From Mesorhizobium sp. AR02 (GTDB lineage Bacteria > Pseudomonadota > Alphaproteobacteria > Rhizobiales > Rhizobiaceae): DNA of 64,000 bases. The notes beneath the pieces were generated by a model, which was not told the DNA's origin, did no database searches, and was given only the letters and a program-made list of their open reading frames with translations. A program made the translations under genes and the position numbers. The stretch lies in NCBI RefSeq assembly GCF_024746835.1, contig NZ_CP080531.1, forward strand, positions 4,050,001 through 4,114,000. The letters are read 5' to 3'. Of this stretch, positions 4,568 to 21,591 are shown one piece after another. Positions within the stretch are counted from its first letter, which is position 1. Each line of letters opens with the position of its first letter.

Positions 4568-4948
4568 ATGACCACCCCGAATTTCGTCATCCTCTATGTC
4601 GACCGGCCGCTGGAGAGCGGCGCCTTCTACAGCGCGCTGCTGGGGCGCGAGCCGGTCGAAAGCGCGCCGACCTTCGTGCTGTTCGTGCTCGACAACGGCT
4701 TCAAGCTCGGCCTCTGGTCGCGCCATACGGTCGAGCCGGCGGCGGCCGCGTCCGGTGGTGGCGCCGAGATCGTGTTTGCGCTGGAGACGCCTGACGCGGT
4801 CGACGCTACCCATGCCGACTGGTCCGGACGCGGCTTGAAGATCCTGCAGACGCCGACCGACATGGATTTCGGCCGCACTTTCGTTGCGCTCGATCCCGAC
4901 AATCACCGCCTGCGTGTCTACTGGCTGTCCAATGGGGAACAGAAATGA
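4568..4948 (+). CDS. VOC-superfamily (glyoxalase/bleomycin-resistance-like) protein
   Basis: 126 aa, one vicinal-oxygen-chelate unit with two beta-alpha-beta-beta-beta modules. It opens with [20 protein letters not shown], typical of small glyoxalase-like proteins, and ends with [14 protein letters not shown]. Metal ligands cannot be assigned with confidence. The protein may be an enzyme or a ligand-binding protein for an electrophile or antibiotic. It is the first gene after the dyad and overlaps the EVE gene by four bases (ATGA). Confidence 0.85.
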
Positions 4949-5388
4949 GCGCGTATTGGATCGCCGTGGCGTCGGCGCAGCATGTCCGGCGCGGTCGGGC
5001 CGCCGGGTTCATGCAGGTCAACCACGGCAAGGCGGCGCCTCTGCGCCGCGTCAAACCTGGCGACGGCATCATCTACTATTCGCCGACCACAATTTTGGGC
5101 GAAAAGGATGGCCTGCAGGCTTTCACGGCAATCGGCACCGTGCGGGAAGGCGAGCCCTATCAGGGCGAGATGGGCGGCGGCTTCACGCCGTTTCGCCGCG
5201 ACGTCGAGTGGATGGCGGCTGAGGAAGCGCCGATCAAGCCACTGCTCGACCAGCTGGATTTCACCGCCGGCAAGTCGAACTGGGGGTATCAGCTTCGCTT
5301 TGGTCTTTTCGAAATCAACGATCACGATTTTCGTCTGATCGCCGACGCGATGGGTGCCGCGAAGACGCTTGCAGAGGCTACGGCTTGA
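4945..5388 (+). CDS. EVE domain-containing protein
   Basis: 147 aa, the usual size of stand-alone EVE/UPF0310 proteins of the PUA-like fold. Supporting segments are [11 protein letters not shown] at the N-terminus, [12 protein letters not shown] in the middle and FRLIADAMG near the end. EVE domains bind modified bases in DNA or RNA; the ligand here is unknown. Its ATG overlaps the VOC stop codon (ATGA), so it is translationally coupled. The 3' end overlaps the convergent cyclodeaminase gene by 11 bases. Confidence 0.85.
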
Positions 5389-6343
5389 GAGCCTTGTAGA
5401 CGGCGATCCCGGCGGCAAGGTCCTCGAGTGCTGCGCCAACCGACTTGAACAGCGTGATCTCGTCGGCGCTTGCGCGACCCTTCTTCTGGCCGCGCGCCAG
5501 TTCATGCAGGTCGGCGAGGATGGCTTCCGGCTTCAGCACGCCCGACGCAAGCGGGATGACGATGTCGCCGGCCTCCTTGGTGGCGCCGGCGCGGGTGTCG
5601 ACATAGACGCTGGCGCGCCGGATCGCATCGTCGTCGCTTTCGCGCATGGTCGGCGTGAAACCACCGACCATGTCGACATGGGCCCCCGGCTTCAGCAGCG
5701 CGCCCTTGATCAGCGGCTTGGTGGCGATCGTTGCCGAAGAGATGATGTCGGCCTCGCCAAGTTCGGCATCGAGATCACTTGCAGCACTTGCCGCGAAGCC
5801 GTCGGCGCGCAGATCGGTCGCGACCTTCTCGGCATTGGCCAGCGTCCGGTTCCAGATGCGGATGGTCTTGATCGGCCGCACGGCTGCATGCGCTTTGGCG
5901 AGAAAGGGCGACAGTGCGCCGGCGCCGATCACCAGCAGCCTGGAGGCGTCCTCGCGCGCCAGATAGGAAGCCGCCAGCGCCGAGGCGCAGGCGGTGCGCC
6001 ACTGCGTCAGCCGCTGGCCGTCGATCAGGGCTTCAGGCTCGCCGGTGGCGCCGTCGAGCAAGAGATAGAGACCCATCACCGCGGGCTTGCCGATGGCGTT
6101 GTTGTCTGGTGAGACGGTGACGATCTTGACGCCGATATGGCCACCGGAAGACGTGCCGGCGGCGTTGAAATCGGTCCATGCCGGCATCAGCAGCAAGGTC
6201 GAGGCCGCACCATCAGGCCGTTCGACTGGGTGATGATGCCTGACGGGCTGCACCGCACCCTCGCGGAAAGCCGTGCGCAGCGTCTCGACCAGTCCGGGAA
6301 AAGTCAGCGCATGATCGACCTCGGCGGCCGAAATGGTCAGCAT
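5378..6343 (-). CDS. Ornithine cyclodeaminase / mu-crystallin family protein
   Basis: 321 aa with the family's N-terminal dimerisation part ([13 protein letters not shown] includes the substrate-contact lysine) and a Rossmann NAD(H) site, [20 protein letters not shown], at about 137-156. Family activities include ornithine cyclodeaminase, imine reductase and alanine dehydrogenase-type reactions, so the substrate is open. It ends 11 bases inside the convergent EVE gene and is separated by 37 bases from the lapA-like gene upstream on the same strand. Confidence 0.85.
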
Positions 6344-6380
6344 GAAAAGCTCCGTGGAAAGAAAGGCGCCGGCCGGCCGC

Positions 6381-6761
6381 TCAATTGGTCGGCTTTGGCA
6401 ATGCTGATCCTTGGGCTGATCCTTGGGCCGATCCTTGGACTGATCCTGGGACCGACCCCTGCGGTGCCGAGGGCGCGCGGCTGACTGCCTGGCGAAGGTT
6501 TTCGGCCTCGACGCCGCGCTGGCGCGCCAGCTTGCGGTAGCGGCCCTGCTTGACCCAGGTCGCCAGGCTGCCGACGATCATGCCGATGGCGAGCGCCAGG
6601 AACAGGAAGATGAACAGCGGCAAGGTGAGCGTCAGCTTCGGATTGCCGGGATTGAACGGGTCCAGCGTGAAGGCGACGAGTTCGCGGTTGGCGACGGCCA
6701 AGGCAATCAGAATGATCGCCAGGGGCACGAAGACCACGATGAGCATGAAACGATTGAGCAT
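6381..6761 (-). CDS. LapA domain-containing inner-membrane protein
   Basis: 126 aa with two membrane segments (about 5-25 and 50-70) in the LapA/YciS arrangement, followed by a cytoplasmic helix ending near REAVSRAP. In enterobacteria LapA works with LapB in LPS assembly control; that role is inference here. It follows ihfB and sppA, an order common in Rhizobiales. The tail is unusual: five degenerate copies of a 12-base unit encode GSV/GSA-Q repeats, separately listed. Confidence 0.82.
   Translation of the reverse strand: MLNRFMLIVVFVPLAIILIALAVANRELVAFTLDPFNPGNPKLTLTLPLFIFLFLALAIGMIVGSLATWVKQGRYRKLARQRGVEAENLRQAVSRAPSAPQGSVPGSVQGSAQGSAQGSALPKPTN
6404..6463. repeat. 12-bp tandem repeat in the lapA-like C-terminus
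   Basis: Five consecutive 12-base units based on CTGATCCTTGGG. The first two are identical, and the others drift by one to several bases. Because the unit is a multiple of three it stays in frame and encodes repeated Gly-Ser-Ala/Val-Gln. Confidence 0.85.
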
Positions 6762-6797
6762 TGTGTTTTCCGTCGGAAGCAGGCGCTGAAGCCGCGC

Positions 6798-7082
6798 TTA
6801 CTTGCCGCCGTTCAGCCTTTCGCGCAGTTCCTTGCCGGTCTTGAAGAACGGCACCCATTTCTCCTCGACCTCGACGGATTCGCCGGTGCGGGGGTTGCGG
6901 CCGGTGCGGGCGGGGCGGTTTTTCACCGAAAAAGCACCGAAGCCGCGCAGCTCGACCCGGTTGCCTTCGGCAAGGGCGTCGGTGATCTCGTCGAAGATCG
7001 CGCCGACAATGTTTTCGACGTCGCGCAGGAAAAGATGTGGATTGCGCGTGGCAATAATCTGCACAAGTTCGGACTTGATCAT
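6798..7082 (-). CDS. ihfB: Integration host factor subunit beta
   Basis: 94 aa DNA-bending protein of the HU/IHF family, full length. It begins [17 protein letters not shown] and contains the beta-arm sequence [20 protein letters not shown] with the conserved proline that intercalates into DNA. It pairs with IhfA to bend DNA at sigma-54 promoters and other sites, which fits the rpoN gene 3 kb away, though the link is only functional. sppA lies about 80 bases upstream. Confidence 0.95.
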
Positions 7083-7162
7083 CAGACGGGTCCCCGTGAA
7101 AGCAGTGCGGTCGAAATTATGAGGATGATTTTATTGGCTTTTTCAGCTGTCCCAAACGGCGC

Positions 7163-8119
7163 TCAAGGGTGCCAGACGGAAACGAGGCCGTCAAGAAACA
7201 AGCGGTCGGCGCCAAGTTCGTGGATGACATCGCCGCTGTAGTCCGGCAGGCCGAGCGCGCTGCCGACCGTTTTCACCATGGCTTTTGACCACAGGAAGCT
7301 GCCGCGCCGGTCAGTGTCTTTCCATTCGACCACCTTGAGCTTGGCGTCGACACCCTTGGTCGCGAGCCAGTCGATCGCCTCGGTCTCGCCACCAACGGCG
7401 TCGATCAGGCCGTTGGCGACACCCTGGCGGCCGGTGAAGATCGACCCGTCGGCAAGCGCGAGTGCCTGTTCGTGGGTCATCTTGCGGCGTTCGGCGACGA
7501 TGCCGACGAACCAGTCGTAGCTGTCGAGGATAAGCTTGCGGACCATGGCGCGCTCGTCGTCATTGGTCGGCTTGAAGGGAGAGGGCGAGGCCTTGAGCGG
7601 TGAGGATTTCACCTCCTCCAGCTTGATGCCGAGCTTGTCCATCAGGCCGCTGACGTCAGGATACTGGATGAGCACGCCGATCGAGCCGACGATCGAGGTC
7701 TTGCGGGCGACAATGTGGTCAGCCGCACTGGCAATCATGTAGCCCGCCGATGCGGCGAGCGTGCCGACTTCGGCCACGACCGGCTTGTCGGCCGCCACCT
7801 TGCGCACCTCCTCGTAGATCGATTCACCGCCGACAGTGGTGCCGCCGGGTGAATCGATCGCAAGGATCACGCCTTTCACCTTCGACGACTTGCGGATGTC
7901 CTCCAGCCGCTTGATGAGTTCCTCGTCCTCGGTGATCGTGCCTTCGATCCTGACCTTGGCGATGTGATCGACAGTCGAGCCGCCGAGATCGTCGCGATAA
8001 AACCAGGCCGACAGCGCAATCACGCCGAGTGCCACGATGCCGATGGCCGCAATACGCCAGAATGTCAGCTTGCGCCGCAAACGGCGGCGGTCGATCAGGT
8101 CGTCGGCTCTCAGTGCCAT
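7163..8119 (-). CDS. sppA: Signal peptide peptidase SppA, short form (S49)
   Basis: 318 aa from the ATG at 8119, which has GAGG about seven bases upstream; a GTG at 8131 would add four residues but has no ribosome-binding site. One membrane anchor lies at about 21-40. The serine/lysine dyad fits S124 in LAASAGYMIAS and K176 in SSPLKASPSPFK. The single S49 domain is the typical short form that degrades cleaved signal peptides and small membrane proteins on the periplasmic side. Confidence 0.92.
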   Translation of the reverse strand: MALRADDLIDRRRLRRKLTFWRIAAIGIVALGVIALSAWFYRDDLGGSTVDHIAKVRIEGTITEDEELIKRLEDIRKSSKVKGVILAIDSPGGTTVGGESIYEEVRKVAADKPVVAEVGTLAASAGYMIASAADHIVARKTSIVGSIGVLIQYPDVSGLMDKLGIKLEEVKSSPLKASPSPFKPTNDDERAMVRKLILDSYDWFVGIVAERRKMTHEQALALADGSIFTGRQGVANGLIDAVGGETEAIDWLATKGVDAKLKVVEWKDTDRRGSFLWSKAMVKTVGSALGLPDYSGDVIHELGADRLFLDGLVSVWHP

Positions 8120-8479
8120 GGTCAGCCTCACAGTCGGCGGGAAGGGACGCTTTTAGACCATGATGTCCTTATCGGGAAGCAGTTCCGTCTTCGATATTGC
8201 GCGGCAATCCGCCCAAAGCGATCCCAATACTGTCTGTTTTGTGACTGGCCTGCGCAAGGGACGCAAGGTAAGGGGGAGAAACGGCGGCGATGAAAAAACG
8301 GCGCAGGCGCGTCCATTTCTGCTATGAAGTACCGGCTGTTGTGCCGACCTCGTTTTCGTTTGTGCAACCACAGTTGTCACATTTTTGCGGTTTTCGTGGG
8401 CTTGTGCTTGCTTGAGGGCGCCGGCCCCCCACCTATAGGCGGTGCTCCCGGGCGGGCAGGGGTTTAGAAGAAAGCAGTC
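8120..8479. other. Intergenic region between divergent sppA and lptC
   Basis: About 360 bases without a convincing gene. A 79-codon minus-strand frame (8128-8367) is arginine-rich, shows no family features and has no good ribosome-binding site. The region presumably carries the promoters for sppA and for the lptC-lptA-lptB block; I could not place -10/-35 boxes with confidence. Confidence 0.6.
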
Positions 8480-9193
8480 ATGTTAGCGCGATCGAATGAA
8501 CCGACCAGCCCCGAGATGGAGTTGGCTCCCCCGGCGGATGGCTGGGAGCGGGGCGACGCGTTCGACCGCGCCCAGCGTCATTCGCGCCGCGTGCGGGTGC
8601 TCAAATTCGCCGTGCCCCTGGCCGCGGCGCTGATCGCGGTCGCCTTCCCGGTCTATTCCTATCTGGCCGCACCGATCTCCGTCGCGGTGCAGACGGAAGG
8701 CACCGCCTTTTCCAACGGCAAGCTGGTGATGGCCAATCCCAAGCTCAACGGTTTCACCAAGCAGAAGCAGCCCTATTCGATGACAGCCCTGCGGGCGATA
8801 CAGGATGTCAACACGCAAGGCATCATCGAGCTCGAAGGCATAGACGCCAAGGTGCCGGTCGGGCCGGACAATGTCGCTGCGATCAAAGCCTCGCGCGGGA
8901 CCTACGATCGCGACGGCAATACGATGAAAATGACCAGCGACGTCGTGATCACCACGACCGACGGCATGCAAGCCAAGTTCAAATCGGTCTTCCTCGACAT
9001 GGGCAAAGGCACTATGAAGACGGATGATCCCGTCGATGTCAGCCGTGGCGGGTCGCAGATCACAGCGGATTCCCTGTCGGTCCAGGACAATGGCAAGGTC
9101 CTGGTGTTCGAGAACAGGGTGCGCGTCAACATCGATCCCGCCGCTCTGAAGGCGGCTGAGGCAAAGGGCGAAGAAGCGAATGTGGCTCAATAG
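8480..9193 (+). CDS. lptC: LPS export ABC transporter periplasmic protein LptC
   Basis: 237 aa: a cytoplasmic N-terminus (1-35), one membrane anchor (about 36-55, LKFAVPLAAALIAVAFPVYS), then a beta-jellyroll LptC domain. LptC takes LPS from the LptB2FG transporter and passes it to LptA. Length is somewhat above the enterobacterial form, as usual in Rhizobiales. Its 3' end overlaps lptA by 14 bases in another frame. Confidence 0.9.
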   Translation: MLARSNEPTSPEMELAPPADGWERGDAFDRAQRHSRRVRVLKFAVPLAAALIAVAFPVYSYLAAPISVAVQTEGTAFSNGKLVMANPKLNGFTKQKQPYSMTALRAIQDVNTQGIIELEGIDAKVPVGPDNVAAIKASRGTYDRDGNTMKMTSDVVITTTDGMQAKFKSVFLDMGKGTMKTDDPVDVSRGGSQITADSLSVQDNGKVLVFENRVRVNIDPAALKAAEAKGEEANVAQ

Positions 9194-9782
9194 TTCGACA
9201 CGGCTTGTGGCCGCAACCTCGGCGCTGCTCCTGCTGGCGCTGGCGCCGTCGCTGGCACAGTCCAGTGCCAGCGGCCAGATGTCCGGGCTCAAACTGTCCG
9301 GCGACCAGCCGATACAGATCGAAAGTGACAAGCTGGAGGTCCGGCAGGCTGAGAATCTCGCCGTGTTCACCGGTAACGTCACGGTCGTCCAGGGGCCAAC
9401 CCTGCTCAAGGCCGGCAAGATGATGGTCTATTACGTCAAGGATCCCAACGCGGCGGCCAAGGGCACCGAAGCGGCGGGCGCCGCGATGACCGGCTCCGCC
9501 AACATCGACCACCTCGAAGTCAGCGGCAAGGTCTACATCAAGTCGAACGACCAGATTGCAACCGGCGACAACGGCACTTTCGACATGAAGACGCAGGTGC
9601 TGGTCCTGTCCGGCAAGGAAGTGGTGATGTCGCAAGGTCCTAATGTGCTCAAGGGTTGCAAGTTGACCGTGCAGATGAAGACTGGCCTCGCAAACGTCGA
9701 TGGTTGCGGGGGACGTGTCATCATGTCGATGACGCCCCCGCCCAAATCGGATGCGTCGAAATCGGGAGCGACGAACCCCTGA
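9180..9782 (+). CDS. lptA: LPS transport periplasmic protein LptA (OstA-like)
   Basis: 200 aa with a signal peptide (cleavage near LAPSLAQS, residue ~28) followed by an OstA/LptA beta-jellyroll starting [20 protein letters not shown]. It forms the periplasmic bridge that carries LPS to the LptDE translocon. The ATG lies inside the end of lptC, and its TGA overlaps the lptB ATG (TGATG), so all three proteins are coupled. Confidence 0.92.
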
Positions 9783-10600
9783 TGGCCAGCCTGTCATCGC
9801 TGACGGCGCGTCTTCCGGGACGAGCCGCAAGCACGATTTCGGCTCCGGCCACGATCACCGTCGACAAGGCGAAGTTCAAGGGAACCTTGATCGCCAAGGG
9901 CCTGACCAAGAGCTACAAGGGCCGCAAGGTGGTCAGTGGCGTCACGCTCGGCGTGCGTGCCGGCGAGGCCGTCGGGCTGCTCGGCCCAAACGGTGCCGGC
10001 AAGACGACGTGTTTCTACATGGTCACCGGCCTGGTGCCGGTGGATGAAGGCACGATCGAGATCGACGGCTTCGACGTCACCTCGATGCCGATGTATCGCC
10101 GTGCGCGCCTCGGCATCGGCTATCTGCCGCAGGAGGCGTCGATCTTCCGCGGCCTCAATGTCGAGCAGAATATCCGCGCCGTGCTCGAAGTGGTCGAAAA
10201 GGACCGCAAGGTGCGCGAGCGCAGTCTCGACGAACTGCTCGAGGAATTCCACATCAGCCATCTGCGCAAGGCGCCATCCATGTCGCTCTCCGGCGGCGAG
10301 CGGCGGCGCCTGGAGATTGCGCGCGCGCTGGCGACGCGCCCGGCCTACATGCTGCTCGACGAGCCCTTTGCCGGCATCGATCCGATCGCTGTCGCCGACA
10401 TCCAGCAACTGGTGCGCCATCTGACGGCACGCGGCATCGGCGTCCTCATCACCGACCACAATGTGCGCGAGACGCTCGGGCTGATCGACCGCGCCTACAT
10501 CATCCATGCCGGCCAGGTGCTGACCCATGGCCGCGCCGACGAAGTGGTGGCGAACCCGGATGTGCGGCGGCTTTACCTCGGCGAGGGTTTTACGCTCTGA
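9782..10600 (+). CDS. lptB: LPS export ABC transporter ATP-binding protein
   Basis: 272 aa cytoplasmic ATPase. Walker A is GPNGAGKTT (about 68-76), the signature is [15 protein letters not shown], Walker B is [12 protein letters not shown] and the H-loop is ITDHNVRE. The LptB-specific context [17 protein letters not shown] is present. The start overlaps the lptA stop. Relative to E. coli LptB there is an N-terminal extension of about 30 residues rich in Ser/Ala, common in this order. Confidence 0.95.
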
Positions 10601-10612
10601 CTCTTTTTTCGC

Positions 10613-10649
10613 GCAATTCCGGACCGCAACGCAGTTGTCCTGGAATTGC
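10613..10649. other. Hairpin after lptB
   Basis: GCAATTCC (10613-10620) pairs with GGAATTGC (10642-10649), and GGAC pairs with GTCC inside, with one bulged T. The T-run (CTCTTTTTTC) comes before rather than after the stem, so it is not a standard terminator in the plus direction. It lies between lptB and rpoN. Confidence 0.45.
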
Positions 10650-10850
10650 CTTAGGCGTGAAATTTGTTTCCTGACACGATTTTTTGCGTGTAACGGGATG
10701 TTTTTCCGCGATTTTGCTCCGAGATAACGCTCCGGTAAGCGGCTTTTGCTAGGCTTTGCCTTGACAAGCAAAAGCCGGGCCAGTTTCTATGGTCGGCCGC
10801 GAAATTCATTTCCGGTAAGTCTGCGTAGAGGAGGCGTTTGAAACCGAACC

Positions 10851-12377
10851 ATGGCGTTGGCGGCGAAACTACAGCTCCGACAGTCGCAGTCGCTGGTGAT
10901 GACGCCGCAGCTGATGCAGTCGATTCGGCTGCTGCAGTTCACCCATGTCGAGCTCGAGCACTTCATCGACGAGGAGATCGAGCGCAACCCGCTTCTGGAG
11001 CGCGCCGAGCCGCAGGACGACGCTGCGAGCGACCAGGCGCAGAAGACCGAGGCCGAGCCGCAAGCGGCCGCCGACGGCGACTGGTTCGAGAACGAGGCGG
11101 GATGGAGCGCCGAGGCGATCTCGGAAAAACTCGATACGTCACTGGAAAACCTGTTTCCCGACGATCCCGGCACCAGCGAGCGGCTCGGACCCGACCTGAC
11201 GGCGCAATGGAAATCGGCTTCCGGCAATGGCGGTGGCTCCTCGTCCGAGGGGCTTGACGCCGGCGACATGGCGGCGGGCGCCATCACCTTGCGCGACCAT
11301 GTCGGCGAGCAGGTCGCACTCGCCTTCGCCGATCCCGCGGCGCGGCTGATCGCGGCCGACCTCGCCGACGGGCTCGACGAGACCGGTTATTTACGCGCGG
11401 ACCTGGCCGAGGTCGCCGTGCGTCTTGGCGCCGACGCTGCCACGGTGGCCAAGGTGCTGGCGGTGTGCCAGACTTTCGAGCCGGCCGGCCTGTTCGCCCG
11501 CGATCTTGCCGAATGTCTTTCACTGCAGCTTGCGGTACGAGACCGCCTCGATCCGGCGATGAAGGCCCTGGTCGCCAATCTCGAACTTCTGGGGCGGCGC
11601 GATTTCCAGGCGCTGAAGCGGATCTGCGGCGTCGACGAGGAGGATTTGCTCGACATGCTGGCCGAGATCCGGGCGCTCGATCCGCGCCCGGGCATGGCGT
11701 TTTCGGGCGGCGCCAGCGACGCCATCGTCGCCGATGTCGAGGTGCGTGCGGCCAATGACGGCAGCTGGACCGTCGAACTCAACGCCGAAACGCTGCCGCG
11801 TGTGCTGGTCGACCATATCTATTTCGCCCAGGTCTCGCCGCATGCGAAGAACCAGGCGGAAAAGGATTTCCTGGCCGAGTGCCTGCAAAACGCCAACTGG
11901 CTGACGCGCAGCCTCGACCAGCGGGCAAAGACGATCCTCAAAGTGGCTTCGGAAATCGTGCGCCAGCAGGATGCGTTCCTGGTCCATGGCGTGCGCCAGC
12001 TGAAGCCGCTCAATTTGCGCACGGTGGCGGACGCCATCGGCATGCACGAATCGACCGTCAGCCGCGTCACCGCGAACAAATACATGCTGACCCCGCGCGG
12101 CGTGTTCGAACTGCGCTATTTCTTCACCGCTTCGATCGCCGCGTCGGGCGGCGGCGACGCGCATTCCTCTGAAGCGGTGCGGGATCGTATCAAGCAGCTG
12201 ATCGACGAGGAGAAACCCGTCGACGTGCTGTCCGACGACGCCATCGTCGACATGCTCAAGGAGAGCGGCGTCGATATTGCAAGGCGCACGGTCGCCAAGT
12301 ACCGGGAAGGCATGAATATTCCGTCTTCCGTGCAGCGCCGGCGCGAGAAGCGGGCGCTCGCCAGCGCCGGCCGTTAG
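10851..12377 (+). CDS. rpoN: RNA polymerase sigma-54 factor
   Basis: 508 aa. Region I starts LQLRQSQSLVMTPQLMQSI, the glutamine-rich activator-responsive segment. An acidic region II (about 50-115) follows, then the core-binding domain. The HTH contains IGMHESTVSRVTANKYM, and the C-terminal RpoN box reads ARRTVAKYREGMNIPSS. It directs nitrogen-fixation, nitrogen-assimilation and dicarboxylate promoters in rhizobia. lptB upstream and hpf/ptsN downstream is the conserved proteobacterial arrangement. Confidence 0.97.
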   Translation: MALAAKLQLRQSQSLVMTPQLMQSIRLLQFTHVELEHFIDEEIERNPLLERAEPQDDAASDQAQKTEAEPQAAADGDWFENEAGWSAEAISEKLDTSLENLFPDDPGTSERLGPDLTAQWKSASGNGGGSSSEGLDAGDMAAGAITLRDHVGEQVALAFADPAARLIAADLADGLDETGYLRADLAEVAVRLGADAATVAKVLAVCQTFEPAGLFARDLAECLSLQLAVRDRLDPAMKALVANLELLGRRDFQALKRICGVDEEDLLDMLAEIRALDPRPGMAFSGGASDAIVADVEVRAANDGSWTVELNAETLPRVLVDHIYFAQVSPHAKNQAEKDFLAECLQNANWLTRSLDQRAKTILKVASEIVRQQDAFLVHGVRQLKPLNLRTVADAIGMHESTVSRVTANKYMLTPRGVFELRYFFTASIAASGGGDAHSSEAVRDRIKQLIDEEKPVDVLSDDAIVDMLKESGVDIARRTVAKYREGMNIPSSVQRRREKRALASAGR

Positions 12378-19542: not shown

Positions 19543-20025
19543 CTATTCACAGCGCACGGTGACGATGCCCTGATAGGTGCCGGCGGGAAAGATACCGCTC
19601 GACTTGGTGGCGGTGAGATCGACTTGCATGGGGTGGGTGCCGTTGACGACCCTTTGCGGCACGCTTCCGTTGATGTCGACCCCGGAGCCATCAAGGCGGA
19701 AGACCGAGACGAAGGTCACGTTGGTGTCGCCACCGCTCGGCGCGGACGAGAATGCGGCAGGCGGCGGCGCCGAAACCGAGTAGCAGTCCAGCAGGTTAAG
19801 CAGGGTGCACAGAAGCGAGCTTGCCACGACGGTGGCGCTGGCACTCGATCCGCCTGCCTGTTTGGATCCCAATATACTGATGGCGGGATTTGCCTTCATC
19901 GTTCCCGATGCCCCGACCATGATGGTGCACGTGCCGATGATCGCCGCTTGCACCGGAAGGCAGAAGCCGGCAAGGACTGCCCCCGCAAGCAGTGCGCGGC
20001 TATTTCTTCTTCTTTTTCTTGCCAT
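19543..20025 (-). CDS. Spore coat U (SCPU/Csu-type fimbrial) domain protein 2
   Basis: 160 aa with a basic signal peptide (MARKRRRNSRALLAGAVLAG, cleavage near VQAA) and an SCPU domain. The paired cysteine segments GTCTIMVGAS at the start and GIVTVRCE at the very end are family hallmarks. SCPU proteins are the subunits of archaic Csu-type pili and other surface structures. The start lies 26 bases inside the upstream gene. It is the last gene of the four-gene cluster. Confidence 0.85.
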   Translation of the reverse strand: MARKRRRNSRALLAGAVLAGFCLPVQAAIIGTCTIMVGASGTMKANPAISILGSKQAGGSSASATVVASSLLCTLLNLLDCYSVSAPPPAAFSSAPSGGDTNVTFVSVFRLDGSGVDINGSVPQRVVNGTHPMQVDLTATKSSGIFPAGTYQGIVTVRCE

Positions 20026-20521
20026 CGCTGTTTCCGGTCCTGATGCTCCAGCCCTCGTTGGCCCACCCCGGTGATGCGGCCGTGGTGGCGGGTGCGCTGG
20101 TGGCCACGCTCGCCGTCTGGCCGTCGCCGCCGAGATCCATTTTGAGAAGTTTCAGCTCCAGCTGCAGGCGCTGGACCTCAAGTTCGTACAGCCGGCTGCA
20201 GTCGAGACGCTTCGGCGTACGCCCGATCGGGATCACCACCCGGCCGTAGGTGGCGACGCCATTGTCCGTCTGGTTGTTGCCTCTGATAACGCCGAGATCG
20301 ACATAGGCACCGGAACCGGAGACCGCGGAACGGCAAGTGGTGCCGTCGGCGGCGTGGACCTCGTCCTGGCCCTGGGGCAAGGTGACACCGGGCAAATTGA
20401 AGCCGTTCTCGTTCTGGTTGAGATTGTAGATCTGGTCCTGGGCTTGGGTTGGAACGGTGCTTGTCACAGCAACCGCGAGTGCCAGCGTCAGGATTTGCGA
20501 TGTCCAAAGAACTTTCCGCAT
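20000..20521 (-). CDS. Secreted protein of the SCPU cluster, unknown family
   Basis: 173 aa. Residues 1-27 look like a signal peptide ending TVPTQAQD. The mature part has an N-terminal segment rich in N, Q and G (IYNLNQNENGFNLPG), a cysteine pair, a charged helix (RLYELEVQRLQLELKLLKMD) and a disordered tail ending in six lysines. I do not recognise a family. It overlaps the chaperone gene by 34 bases and the downstream SCPU gene by 26, so it belongs to the same translation unit. Confidence 0.75.
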   Translation of the reverse strand: MRKVLWTSQILTLALAVAVTSTVPTQAQDQIYNLNQNENGFNLPGVTLPQGQDEVHAADGTTCRSAVSGSGAYVDLGVIRGNNQTDNGVATYGRVVIPIGRTPKRLDCSRLYELEVQRLQLELKLLKMDLGGDGQTASVATSAPATTAASPGWANEGWSIRTGNSDGKKKKKK

Positions 20522-20880
20522 ATCTGCGCCTTTATCTGCGTCTGCTGGTTGGGAAAGGGGATGCTTTCGGTACAGATACGCACTTTACGCTCGGCGGCGC
20601 CGCCGAAAGGCACGACCACAAGGACAGGACGAGAGGCCTGGGCACCGAGCTGGAAGACAGCCGGCGATATCCTGGCGTCCACCGGCTGAAAATCCTGATC
20701 GTAGACGTGGATTTCGACCTTGATCTTCTGATCGTATGGATTGGCCGGGAATACGCGGACCGCGAAGACGTCGGTGAAACTGTTGACCTCGCCGCGCATC
20801 GGCGACATCGACTGTGCCGCCGCGGCAACAGGGATCAAGCCGACGGCCAGCGCCGTCGCCAGGGTTCCGAAAAGTGTCAA
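20488..20880 (-). CDS. Pilus chaperone, single (N-terminal PapD-like) domain
   Basis: 130 aa from a TTG at 20880 with AAGGAGG six bases upstream. A signal peptide (cleavage near VAAAAQS) precedes one immunoglobulin-like domain whose SPMRGEVNSFTDVFAVRV and PANPYDQKIKVEIHVYD match the N-terminal domain of periplasmic pilus chaperones. Such chaperones normally have two domains in 220-250 aa; here the frame ends after the first. The gene lies 20 bases after SCPU gene 1. Confidence 0.7.
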   Translation of the reverse strand: MTLFGTLATALAVGLIPVAAAAQSMSPMRGEVNSFTDVFAVRVFPANPYDQKIKVEIHVYDQDFQPVDARISPAVFQLGAQASRPVLVVVPFGGAAERKVRICTESIPFPNQQTQIKAQICGKFFGHRKS

Positions 20881-20900
20881 GGATGCCTCCTTCCCGAGCG

Positions 20901-21371
20901 CTATTCGCAGCGAAGCGTTACCGTTGCCTGATAGTTTCCGTTGGCGAAGCGGTTGCTGCCGCCCTTGGTGCCGGCGAGGTGGACCGAGACAAGGTCGGCG
21001 CCAGGTGTGCTGATGGCGGTCGCCGAGCTGGTCTCGACGATGGAGTGCGCACCCGCGGCGGAGTAGGTTGGTGTCCAGGTGGTCGATGTCGTGTCGGCCG
21101 ACGGCACCGTCGTGGTGGTGACAGGGCCGACGCTCAGCGACACGCCGCCTGTCGTCGTCAGCGTGACGGTTCCGGCCGAGCCGCCGCTGTTGTGGGAGCT
21201 GAGGGTCTGGAGGTCGGGACTGACCGTCATCGTGCCATTGGTAGCAATGACAAGGGTGCAGGTCGGGGTGATCGTGCCATTGAAAATGACATTTTGCGTC
21301 GTAGCCATTGCTGGCTGGCCCAGACATGCGATCAGCAAGGCGGCACCGAAGGCGGTGCGAAACGACTTCAT
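20901..21371 (-). CDS. Spore coat U (SCPU/Csu-type fimbrial) domain protein 1
   Basis: 156 aa with a signal peptide (cleavage near PAMATT) and an SCPU domain: NVIFNGTITPTCTLVIATNG near the N-terminus and YQATVTLRCE at the C-terminus, the same cysteine layout as SCPU protein 2. It is the first gene of the cluster. The AT-rich 220 bases upstream, unlike the rest of the region, probably hold its promoter. Confidence 0.87.
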   Translation of the reverse strand: MKSFRTAFGAALLIACLGQPAMATTQNVIFNGTITPTCTLVIATNGTMTVSPDLQTLSSHNSGGSAGTVTLTTTGGVSLSVGPVTTTTVPSADTTSTTWTPTYSAAGAHSIVETSSATAISTPGADLVSVHLAGTKGGSNRFANGNYQATVTLRCE

Positions 21372-21591
21372 CGAGACCTCCTATTAAGTCGGATAGCCGA
21401 ATTAACAGGAGTTATGATCGCTTTATCGTGGTTAAATTTAGCGTAGACTTAAATATCTCGTACAAATAATAACTATTAATAAACCGATGGTTGTCCCCGG
21501 TTGTGTCCTGAATTTCGGACAAAATTCAAGTAATACTTTCCGCATAACAATATCTGTAAATTTCTTCAGCGAAAACTGGAAAAACGATATT

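Follow-up and report, generated by a model that had tools for sequence, protein, structure and literature searches.

How might pilin-like proteins be assembled at the envelope of a Gram-negative cell by an operon that holds half a chaperone and no usher? The question is raised by four genes of the same direction, A, C, U and B, packed at positions 21371–19543 on the minus strand of a 64,000-nucleotide stretch of Mesorhizobium sp. AR02 DNA (the window). A first-pass annotation had read them as an usherless cluster, in which either an usher encoded elsewhere is used or the partner protein U replaces the missing parts. Our analysis suggests that the genes point to a mechanism, not previously described, by which pilin-like proteins are built or displayed at the envelope. 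We refer to them as the P–C–U cassette, a label coined here for its pilin-like, chaperone-like and U components.

A compact cassette conserved as a unit

Pilin-like protein A (156 aa, with a signal peptide) is encoded by the first gene (20901..21371, minus strand), with AGGAGG upstream at 21382–21377. After a spacing of 20 nt follows the one-domain chaperone-like protein C (20488..20880, minus strand; 130 aa including the signal peptide), which by eye starts at a TTG at 20880 with AAGGAGG 5 nt upstream. The frame of C overlaps that of partner protein U (20000..20521, minus strand; 173 aa, with a signal peptide) by 34 nt, and U in turn shares 26 nt (20000..20025, minus strand) with pilin-like protein B (19543..20025, minus strand; 160 aa, with a signal peptide). 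All four frames and both overlaps bear out the first-pass description of four tightly packed, partly overlapping genes in 19543..21371. Read by eye, all four products have signal-peptide-like starts, and the cassette's neighbours are unrelated, with ribokinase-like and amidase-like genes on one side and an Ada-type methyltransferase gene and others on the opposite side.

A search for U in 297 genomes of the family (a sample taken as GTDB Rhizobiaceae, the window genome counted) was positive in 36, and C used as a query across the genome collection returned 39 loci, which range from Mesorhizobium to Aureimonas, Fulvimarina and Consotaella. Within the genus the distribution is patchy (5 of 9 same-genus genomes). 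The cassette also appears rare more widely: in class and phylum scans that scored about 9–10 candidates per genome and may have missed some carriers, these numbered 2 of 385, C was found in 5 of 398, all of the same genus, and a broad U profile in 9 of 398, the window genome being counted in each figure. Outside the family, U also matched strongly in L085 (G523:C285), possibly on a stray contig, as the genome there has 10% contamination. In a Mesorhizobium plasmid copy (L131), RefSeq labels all four proteins 'hypothetical protein'. EAL-domain genes adjoin the cassette in this copy (1–2012, annotated), in L130 (7362–8084, likewise annotated) and, by eye, in L128 (2890–3603), a possible link to c-di-GMP.

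The search of relatives for gene order and co-occurring ushers that the first-pass annotation had proposed returned a conserved order in 70 loci and ushers at chance level (see below). Across these loci (L001–L070), which partly repeat the same strains and are therefore counted as records and not as independent events, C was found in 69, and U and an upstream pilin in 68 each; a pilin follows U in 65. Where C or U is absent, L002 is a chance match and L070 is cut by a contig end, as is L062. The cassette spans about 1.1–1.8 kb, sometimes with an extra pilin (for example in L017, L020 and L022) or as tandem units (L024 and L030). The C/U overlap measures 31–40 nt in 66 of 71 U frames, the other five being run-on, broken or partnerless frames or having a different start. 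When nine loci were compared, the cassette frames were the sole frames common to all nine; L066 has one extra frame of about 125 aa in common with L065 and L069, and flanks are shared throughout between near relatives, by L065 and L069 and likewise by three Mesorhizobium loci. Median dN/dS against Mesorhizobium relatives was 0.131 for A, 0.132 for C and 0.166 for B (27 pairs each) and 0.179 for U (28 pairs); these are crude NG86 estimates from pairs that share one partner and are distorted by the gene overlaps, yet the values are still far from 1. The cassette is under purifying selection.

These data bear directly on the notion of a decayed chaperone–usher operon that has lost its usher and half of its chaperone. 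C is indeed half-size, the usher is missing, and single frames are broken in three loci, where U is split (L044 and L061) or the first pilin is (L016), the pieces having been left separate. Set against this, order and overlaps are kept in 70 loci, the P–C–U core recurs in phages, and dN/dS stays at 0.13–0.18. We rejected a relic on conservation and dN/dS and give it next to no probability; the degraded cluster that the first-pass annotation had named as fatal to its proposal is not what the conserved block resembles.

The pilin-like, chaperone-like and U proteins

A and B are homologous (hhalign 99.9%) and differ at their N-termini. A carries a 14-residue stretch, TTQNVIFNGTITPT, ahead of its first Cys, which contains an FNG motif, whereas B has just 5 residues there and no donor-strand-like extension. 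By our own simple cleavage rule, the residues between the predicted cleavage site and the first Cys number a median of 14 in A-type sequences (range 12–59; 56 of 68 sequences) and of 5 in B-type sequences (range 0–31; 58 of 74). At the other end, A terminates in ...GNYQATVTLRCE and B in ...VTVRCE, the terminal Cys-Glu being invariant in B and its relatives and present in most relatives of A. In the Vibrio plasmid copy L130, a 263-aa protein with a C-terminus that looks pilin-like by eye (AGKYRTRIEVTC) lies between P and C (5793–6581); it may be a two-domain tip adhesin.

The first-pass assignment of A and B to the SCPU proteins did not hold. Neither matched PF05229 (SCPU), even at E 10 in the scan of the window genome, and the same scan was positive for three SCPU stretches of a Csu operon; by Pfam, neither is an SCPU or pilin subunit, and neither had any convincing Pfam match. 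Aligned by hhalign with six real SCPU proteins, A reached 25%, B 0.2% and the phage P described below 2.2%; by this comparison A is weakly related to SCPU, and B and phage P show no relation. Weak and scattered Pfam matches among the relatives of A (Pilin in 2 of 37 and Fimbrial_K88 in 1 of 37, at about 0.05) were set aside, as was a PDB match of A to 10ss_a (E 6e-4), which spans only the signal peptide and the first strand and whose depositor name is unrelated. PDB searches with the B profile gave no informative match.

C falls short of a two-domain PapD-like chaperone in length. Of its frames, 65 of 69 are 125–145 aa long; two run on to 177 (L014 and L068) and two are cut by contig ends. It terminates at the expected G1 strand (TQIKAQICGKF), and two Cys residues are invariant in 23 of 23 aligned members. 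Pfam and NCBIfam gave no match for the window C, and no member of the family alignment matched PapD_N. Against 23 canonical chaperones, hhalign gave 43% for the family set, 43% for the phage set alone and 81% (P 1.2e-5) for the broad C set, with the same motif order, the negative control of U against the chaperones giving 0.9%. A PDB search with the broad C profile was not significant (E 0.19–2.0); its 10 rows comprised two fimbrial chaperones (2co6 and DraB, 4djm), four VAP MSP entries, three COMMD5 entries and one Fab. The MSP domain has a PapD-like fold. We infer that C is a remotely PapD-like, half-size chaperone. The first-pass view of a chaperone cut to its N-terminal domain agrees with C in length and motif order, but Pfam stays silent and the profile comparisons lend it 43% or 81%.

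U has an extended N-terminus, a Cys-bracketed strand–loop–strand, a helix-like segment and a low-complexity linker. Its core runs in the order DGTTC, strand, variable loop, strand and DC-x2-LYxLE-x2-RL, and W-x(3,4)-GW is conserved near the C-terminus. Between Cys63 and Cys108, residues 71–100 (20222..20311, minus strand) would form two strand-like segments, GAYVDLGVI and YGRVVIPIG, around a loop of variable length, as judged from hydrophobicity by alignment column; this alternates along the segments, but not strictly, and column 96 breaks the pattern. Such an amphipathic pattern would suit a membrane strand and a soluble sheet equally. The sequence pattern C-x2-LYxLE-x2-RL suggests a helix-like segment at residues 108–129 (20135..20200, minus strand), with a possible part in oligomerisation. 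Database searches gave clear matches to phage families of unknown function only (window U against phrog_37374, E 2.7e-11), with no convincing Pfam match and no solved relative in the PDB searches. Weak and scattered Pfam matches among U members, to DUF3551 in 3 of 38 (best E 0.004) and AGA-YXIM_GBD in 6 of 38 (0.012), were discarded.

The hexa-lysine tail that the first-pass annotation had singled out in U is present in the window, but it is confined to copies with a U/B overlap of 26–29 nt, and we rejected it as a key feature of the protein. In all 33 U frames that overlap the next pilin by 26–29 nt, K or R makes up 5–7 of the last 10 residues; in six frames with overlaps of 19–23 nt the count is 0–3. 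The A-rich run in the overlap is read in two frames, encoding both the hexa-lysine tail of U and the basic signal-peptide start of B (MARKRRR), and so the tail belongs to a type of copy (mostly Mesorhizobium) and not to U generally.

If U were a Cys-locked amphipathic beta-hairpin with a variable loop and an oligomerisation helix, a U multimer could serve as outer-membrane pore or platform of an usher-independent minimal machine, spread by phages, which exports and assembles fibres across the outer membrane and with which phages change the host surface or dress their virions. We regard this stronger proposal as distinctly improbable. We also consider unlikely a reading in which subunits folded by C stay in the periplasm or leave as soluble proteins, with U as a periplasmic scaffold and no assembly at the outer membrane. 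The small size of the four products and their signal-peptide-like starts would suit it, as would the lack of an usher in the block or its examined flanks and of any extra frame common to the nine loci. However, the FNG-bearing extension of A against its lack in B resembles the difference between polymerising and tip subunits, and a chaperone-like C points to subunits of pilus type.

Ushers and canonical chaperones in carrier genomes

The usher profile PF00577 was matched in 34 of the 297 family genomes and in 5 of the 36 cluster genomes (the window genome G000, G021, G040, G200 and G255), against 4.1 expected by chance. PF00345 was found in exactly the same five, so that both profiles are absent from 31 of the 36; it was also present in 20 of 20 examined usher-bearing genomes without the cluster (29 such genomes are known). 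With the window genome's usher (843 aa) as query, tblastn matched none of the 70 cassette loci and none of 21 loci from phages and elsewhere, and was positive in 40 of the 49 loci L071–L119 (mostly on the usher side). No usher was found in or with the cassette operon, in line with the first-pass annotation.

The single usher of the window genome lies 3.9 Mb away from the window, at G000:C2 123.7 kb, and is part of a complete Csu operon (L083, G000:C2:117000-131000, positions 4617–9282) that encodes an SCPU pilin, a two-domain chaperone, the usher and a double-SCPU protein. Since this usher has a two-domain chaperone and SCPU pilins of its own within one complete operon, the missing usher and chaperone half are not simply elsewhere, and the split operon that would have overturned the first-pass proposal was not encountered.

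Could the cluster nonetheless supply an usher encoded elsewhere, the first option of that proposal, or another exporter such as curli CsgG? The window genome does have its one PF00577 usher, and outside the family PF00577 exceeded the cut-off in G732 and G986, with a sub-threshold match in G877. Yet it was matched neither in 31 of the 36 cluster genomes nor, outside the family, in G919 and G969; the five cluster genomes with an usher are about what chance would give, and in all five PF00345 accompanies the usher. CsgG exceeded the cut-off in 6 of 40 genomes, of which 4 belong to the 36 cluster genomes and none is the window genome, and the TcfC profile was matched in 0 of 40. An usher elsewhere was therefore rejected for the family, on the absence of PF00577 from 31 of 36 cluster genomes, and we consider an outside usher or exporter very improbable. 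The PapC_N profile, also matched in 0 of 40 genomes, was uninformative, since it missed the five known ushers of the clade.

Half-size chaperones are found in true usher operons as well: single-domain PF00345 chaperones stand straight before ushers in L097 (182 aa), L110 (145 aa), L112 (141 aa) and L113 (150 aa). A 208-aa chaperone frame in L106 may be a fifth one-domain case in an usher operon.

Phage copies, a tentative mechanism and known systems

Relatives of U were found on two Vibrio nigripulchritudo plasmids, on 10 IMG/VR viral contigs and in 176 Vibrio phage records. Searching 50,697 phage records by tblastn with the proteins of Vibrio phage 51E28.4 (for U, the open frame extended upstream of its annotated start) returned C in 179, P in 179 and U in 190, nearly all of Vibrio phages; the U-positive records divide into 180 of Vibrio, 6 of Klebsiella, 3 of Erwinia and 1 of Stenotrophomonas phages, all counts being of records, which include near-identical isolates, and not of independent events. 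Adjacency was read from the examined loci: P, C and U are consecutive in the Vibrio phage loci L132–L134, in the T5-like Thalassa (gp150–152) and in 8 of 10 IMG/VR loci, the other two, L126 and L129, being truncated at their beginning. A significant U match (4e-15) came from the jumbo phage Eowyn too, whose adjoining C and P were read by size and cysteines only.

U, C and P are homologous to phrog_37374, phrog_25455 and phrog_25895, respectively, all listed as of unknown function; the C and P of 51E28.4 belong to the latter two, and the C and P sets include members of these phage families. The window C and A, like the C and P of L122, were unmatched in the PHROG search, so that their link to the phage proteins is by profile comparison (window family against phage by hhalign, 96.7% for C and 99.4%, E 7e-22, for P). 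Bacterial copies also occur outside the family, in G877, G732, G969 and G986; C and U pass in all four, and the P profile gave a strong match in L144, weak ones in L145 and L146 and none in L147. In L147, a very large lipoprotein-like frame (7351–12000, >1500 aa) lies beside a pilin-like frame, divergent from the C–U pair. In a U tree of 27 chosen rows, the nine rows of the rhizobial family make up one clade (98/97), outside which viral rows intermingle with others, and the direction of transfer is not fixed by the tree. The cassette copies of the rhizobial family form one lineage.

Within the examined phage loci the cassette sits among late genes, some of them lysis or head genes. It lies between the portal and major head protein genes in L124, neighbours a major head protein gene in L132, and follows endolysin and Rz-like spanin genes in L127, with virion proteins nearby. 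In Thalassa, two large genes that look tail-fibre-like by eye precede P, C and U in that order, and after U come a lipoprotein-like gene, then a small gene, an annotated holin gene and an M15 peptidase/endolysin gene; for the large genes of L132 and L133 that were tested, the PHROG matches were confined to families of unknown function. Small lipoprotein-like genes overlap the end of U in Vibrio phages (L149, 6649–6852; L134, 9239–9424), near holin or M15 peptidase genes, in a position that is Rz1-like by eye. Since phages carry the cassette among structural or lysis genes, its probable site of action is the envelope or, at release, the particles. Carriage beside lysis genes fits roles other than a fibre too.

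One such role would be that of an envelope module which the host adopted from phages, or phages from the host. Instead of a pilus it would form a complex of the periplasm or outer membrane that blocks receptors, hinders superinfection or aids late release, the rhizobial copy being a retained anti-phage or envelope-remodelling unit. The Thalassa cassette upstream of holin and endolysin genes, the positions in L127 and L124 and the single rhizobial clade among mixed viral and other rows in the tree of chosen rows all agree with such an origin, and of the alternatives it is the one we take most seriously, though we still think it unlikely. The same tree leaves the direction of transfer unfixed, and the copies of the rhizobial family have at least two pilins, sometimes in tandem units, as expected of a fibre. 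L144–L147, moreover, lie on large contigs with no phage structural genes recognised by eye; L147 has one recombinase-like and one transposase-like frame nearby.

We tentatively prefer to see the P–C–U cassette as a self-contained, usherless envelope system that builds a short surface fibre or coat, a reading that we hold as possible and place above its rivals. It draws on the conservation of the cassette as a unit under purifying selection, the absence of PF00577 and PF00345 from 31 of 36 cluster genomes, the 81% profile comparison of C with canonical chaperones, the homology of A and B together with their difference in extension, the homology to phage proteins and the existence of one-domain chaperones in true usher operons. 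The folds of the cassette proteins and strand donation between them we infer from sequence. We envision that all four products, with their signal peptides, would be exported by the Sec pathway. In the periplasm C, taken as a lone PapD-like domain whose final two strands bear a Cys pair, would lend its last strand and cap the open groove of the pilin-like subunits. A, with its donor-strand-like N-terminal extension, would be the polymerising subunit, and B, which has no such extension, the tip or first subunit. U may receive the C–subunit complexes and act as assembly or anchoring factor at the outer membrane instead of an usher, the weakest step of the scheme; the second option of the first-pass annotation, that the partner replaces the missing parts, survives insofar as it fits the adjacent, overlapping C–U pair, while the usher role of U itself is conjectural. 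A short surface fibre or coat would result. Phage cassettes may alter the surface of the infected cell late in infection or coat the released particles.

The beginnings of abstracts from the literature on usherless systems and phage pilins contained no description of the cassette. If P–C–U builds fibres, it would represent pilin-type assembly in Gram-negative bacteria without an usher, by one chaperone domain and a small partner, and would offer a first testable role for three phage protein families that recur in cultured Vibrio phages. It ties a rhizobial envelope system to phage biology.

Among known systems, the cells that make TasA/TapA fibres and archaeal threads have no outer membrane, hence no usher and, unlike P–C–U, no such membrane to cross. 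The fibres of Bacillus and the archaeal threads are reported to be strand-complemented filaments (PMC10151520, PMC9715654), a likeness to P–C–U by description. The one-domain PapD_N chaperones of L097, L110, L112 and L113, like C, end at the G1 strand with no second domain; unlike C, they match PF00345 and stand before a true usher gene. CsgH and CsgC of curli are single Ig-like periplasmic chaperone domains to which C can be likened by description, whereas the CsgG pore, as noted, was over the cut-off in a minority of genomes. Archaic Csu pili (for example L083, G000:C2:121.7-126.3 kb) share with the cassette a compact operon, small secreted pilin-like subunits that end in a G-x-Y-x(3)-V strand and, on our reading of C, a PapD-like chaperone. 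The P–C–U pilins are set apart from them by an invariant Cys near the N-terminal strand and another near the C-terminus, and where archaic Csu has a two-domain chaperone and an 843-aa usher frame, P–C–U does without both and has U instead.
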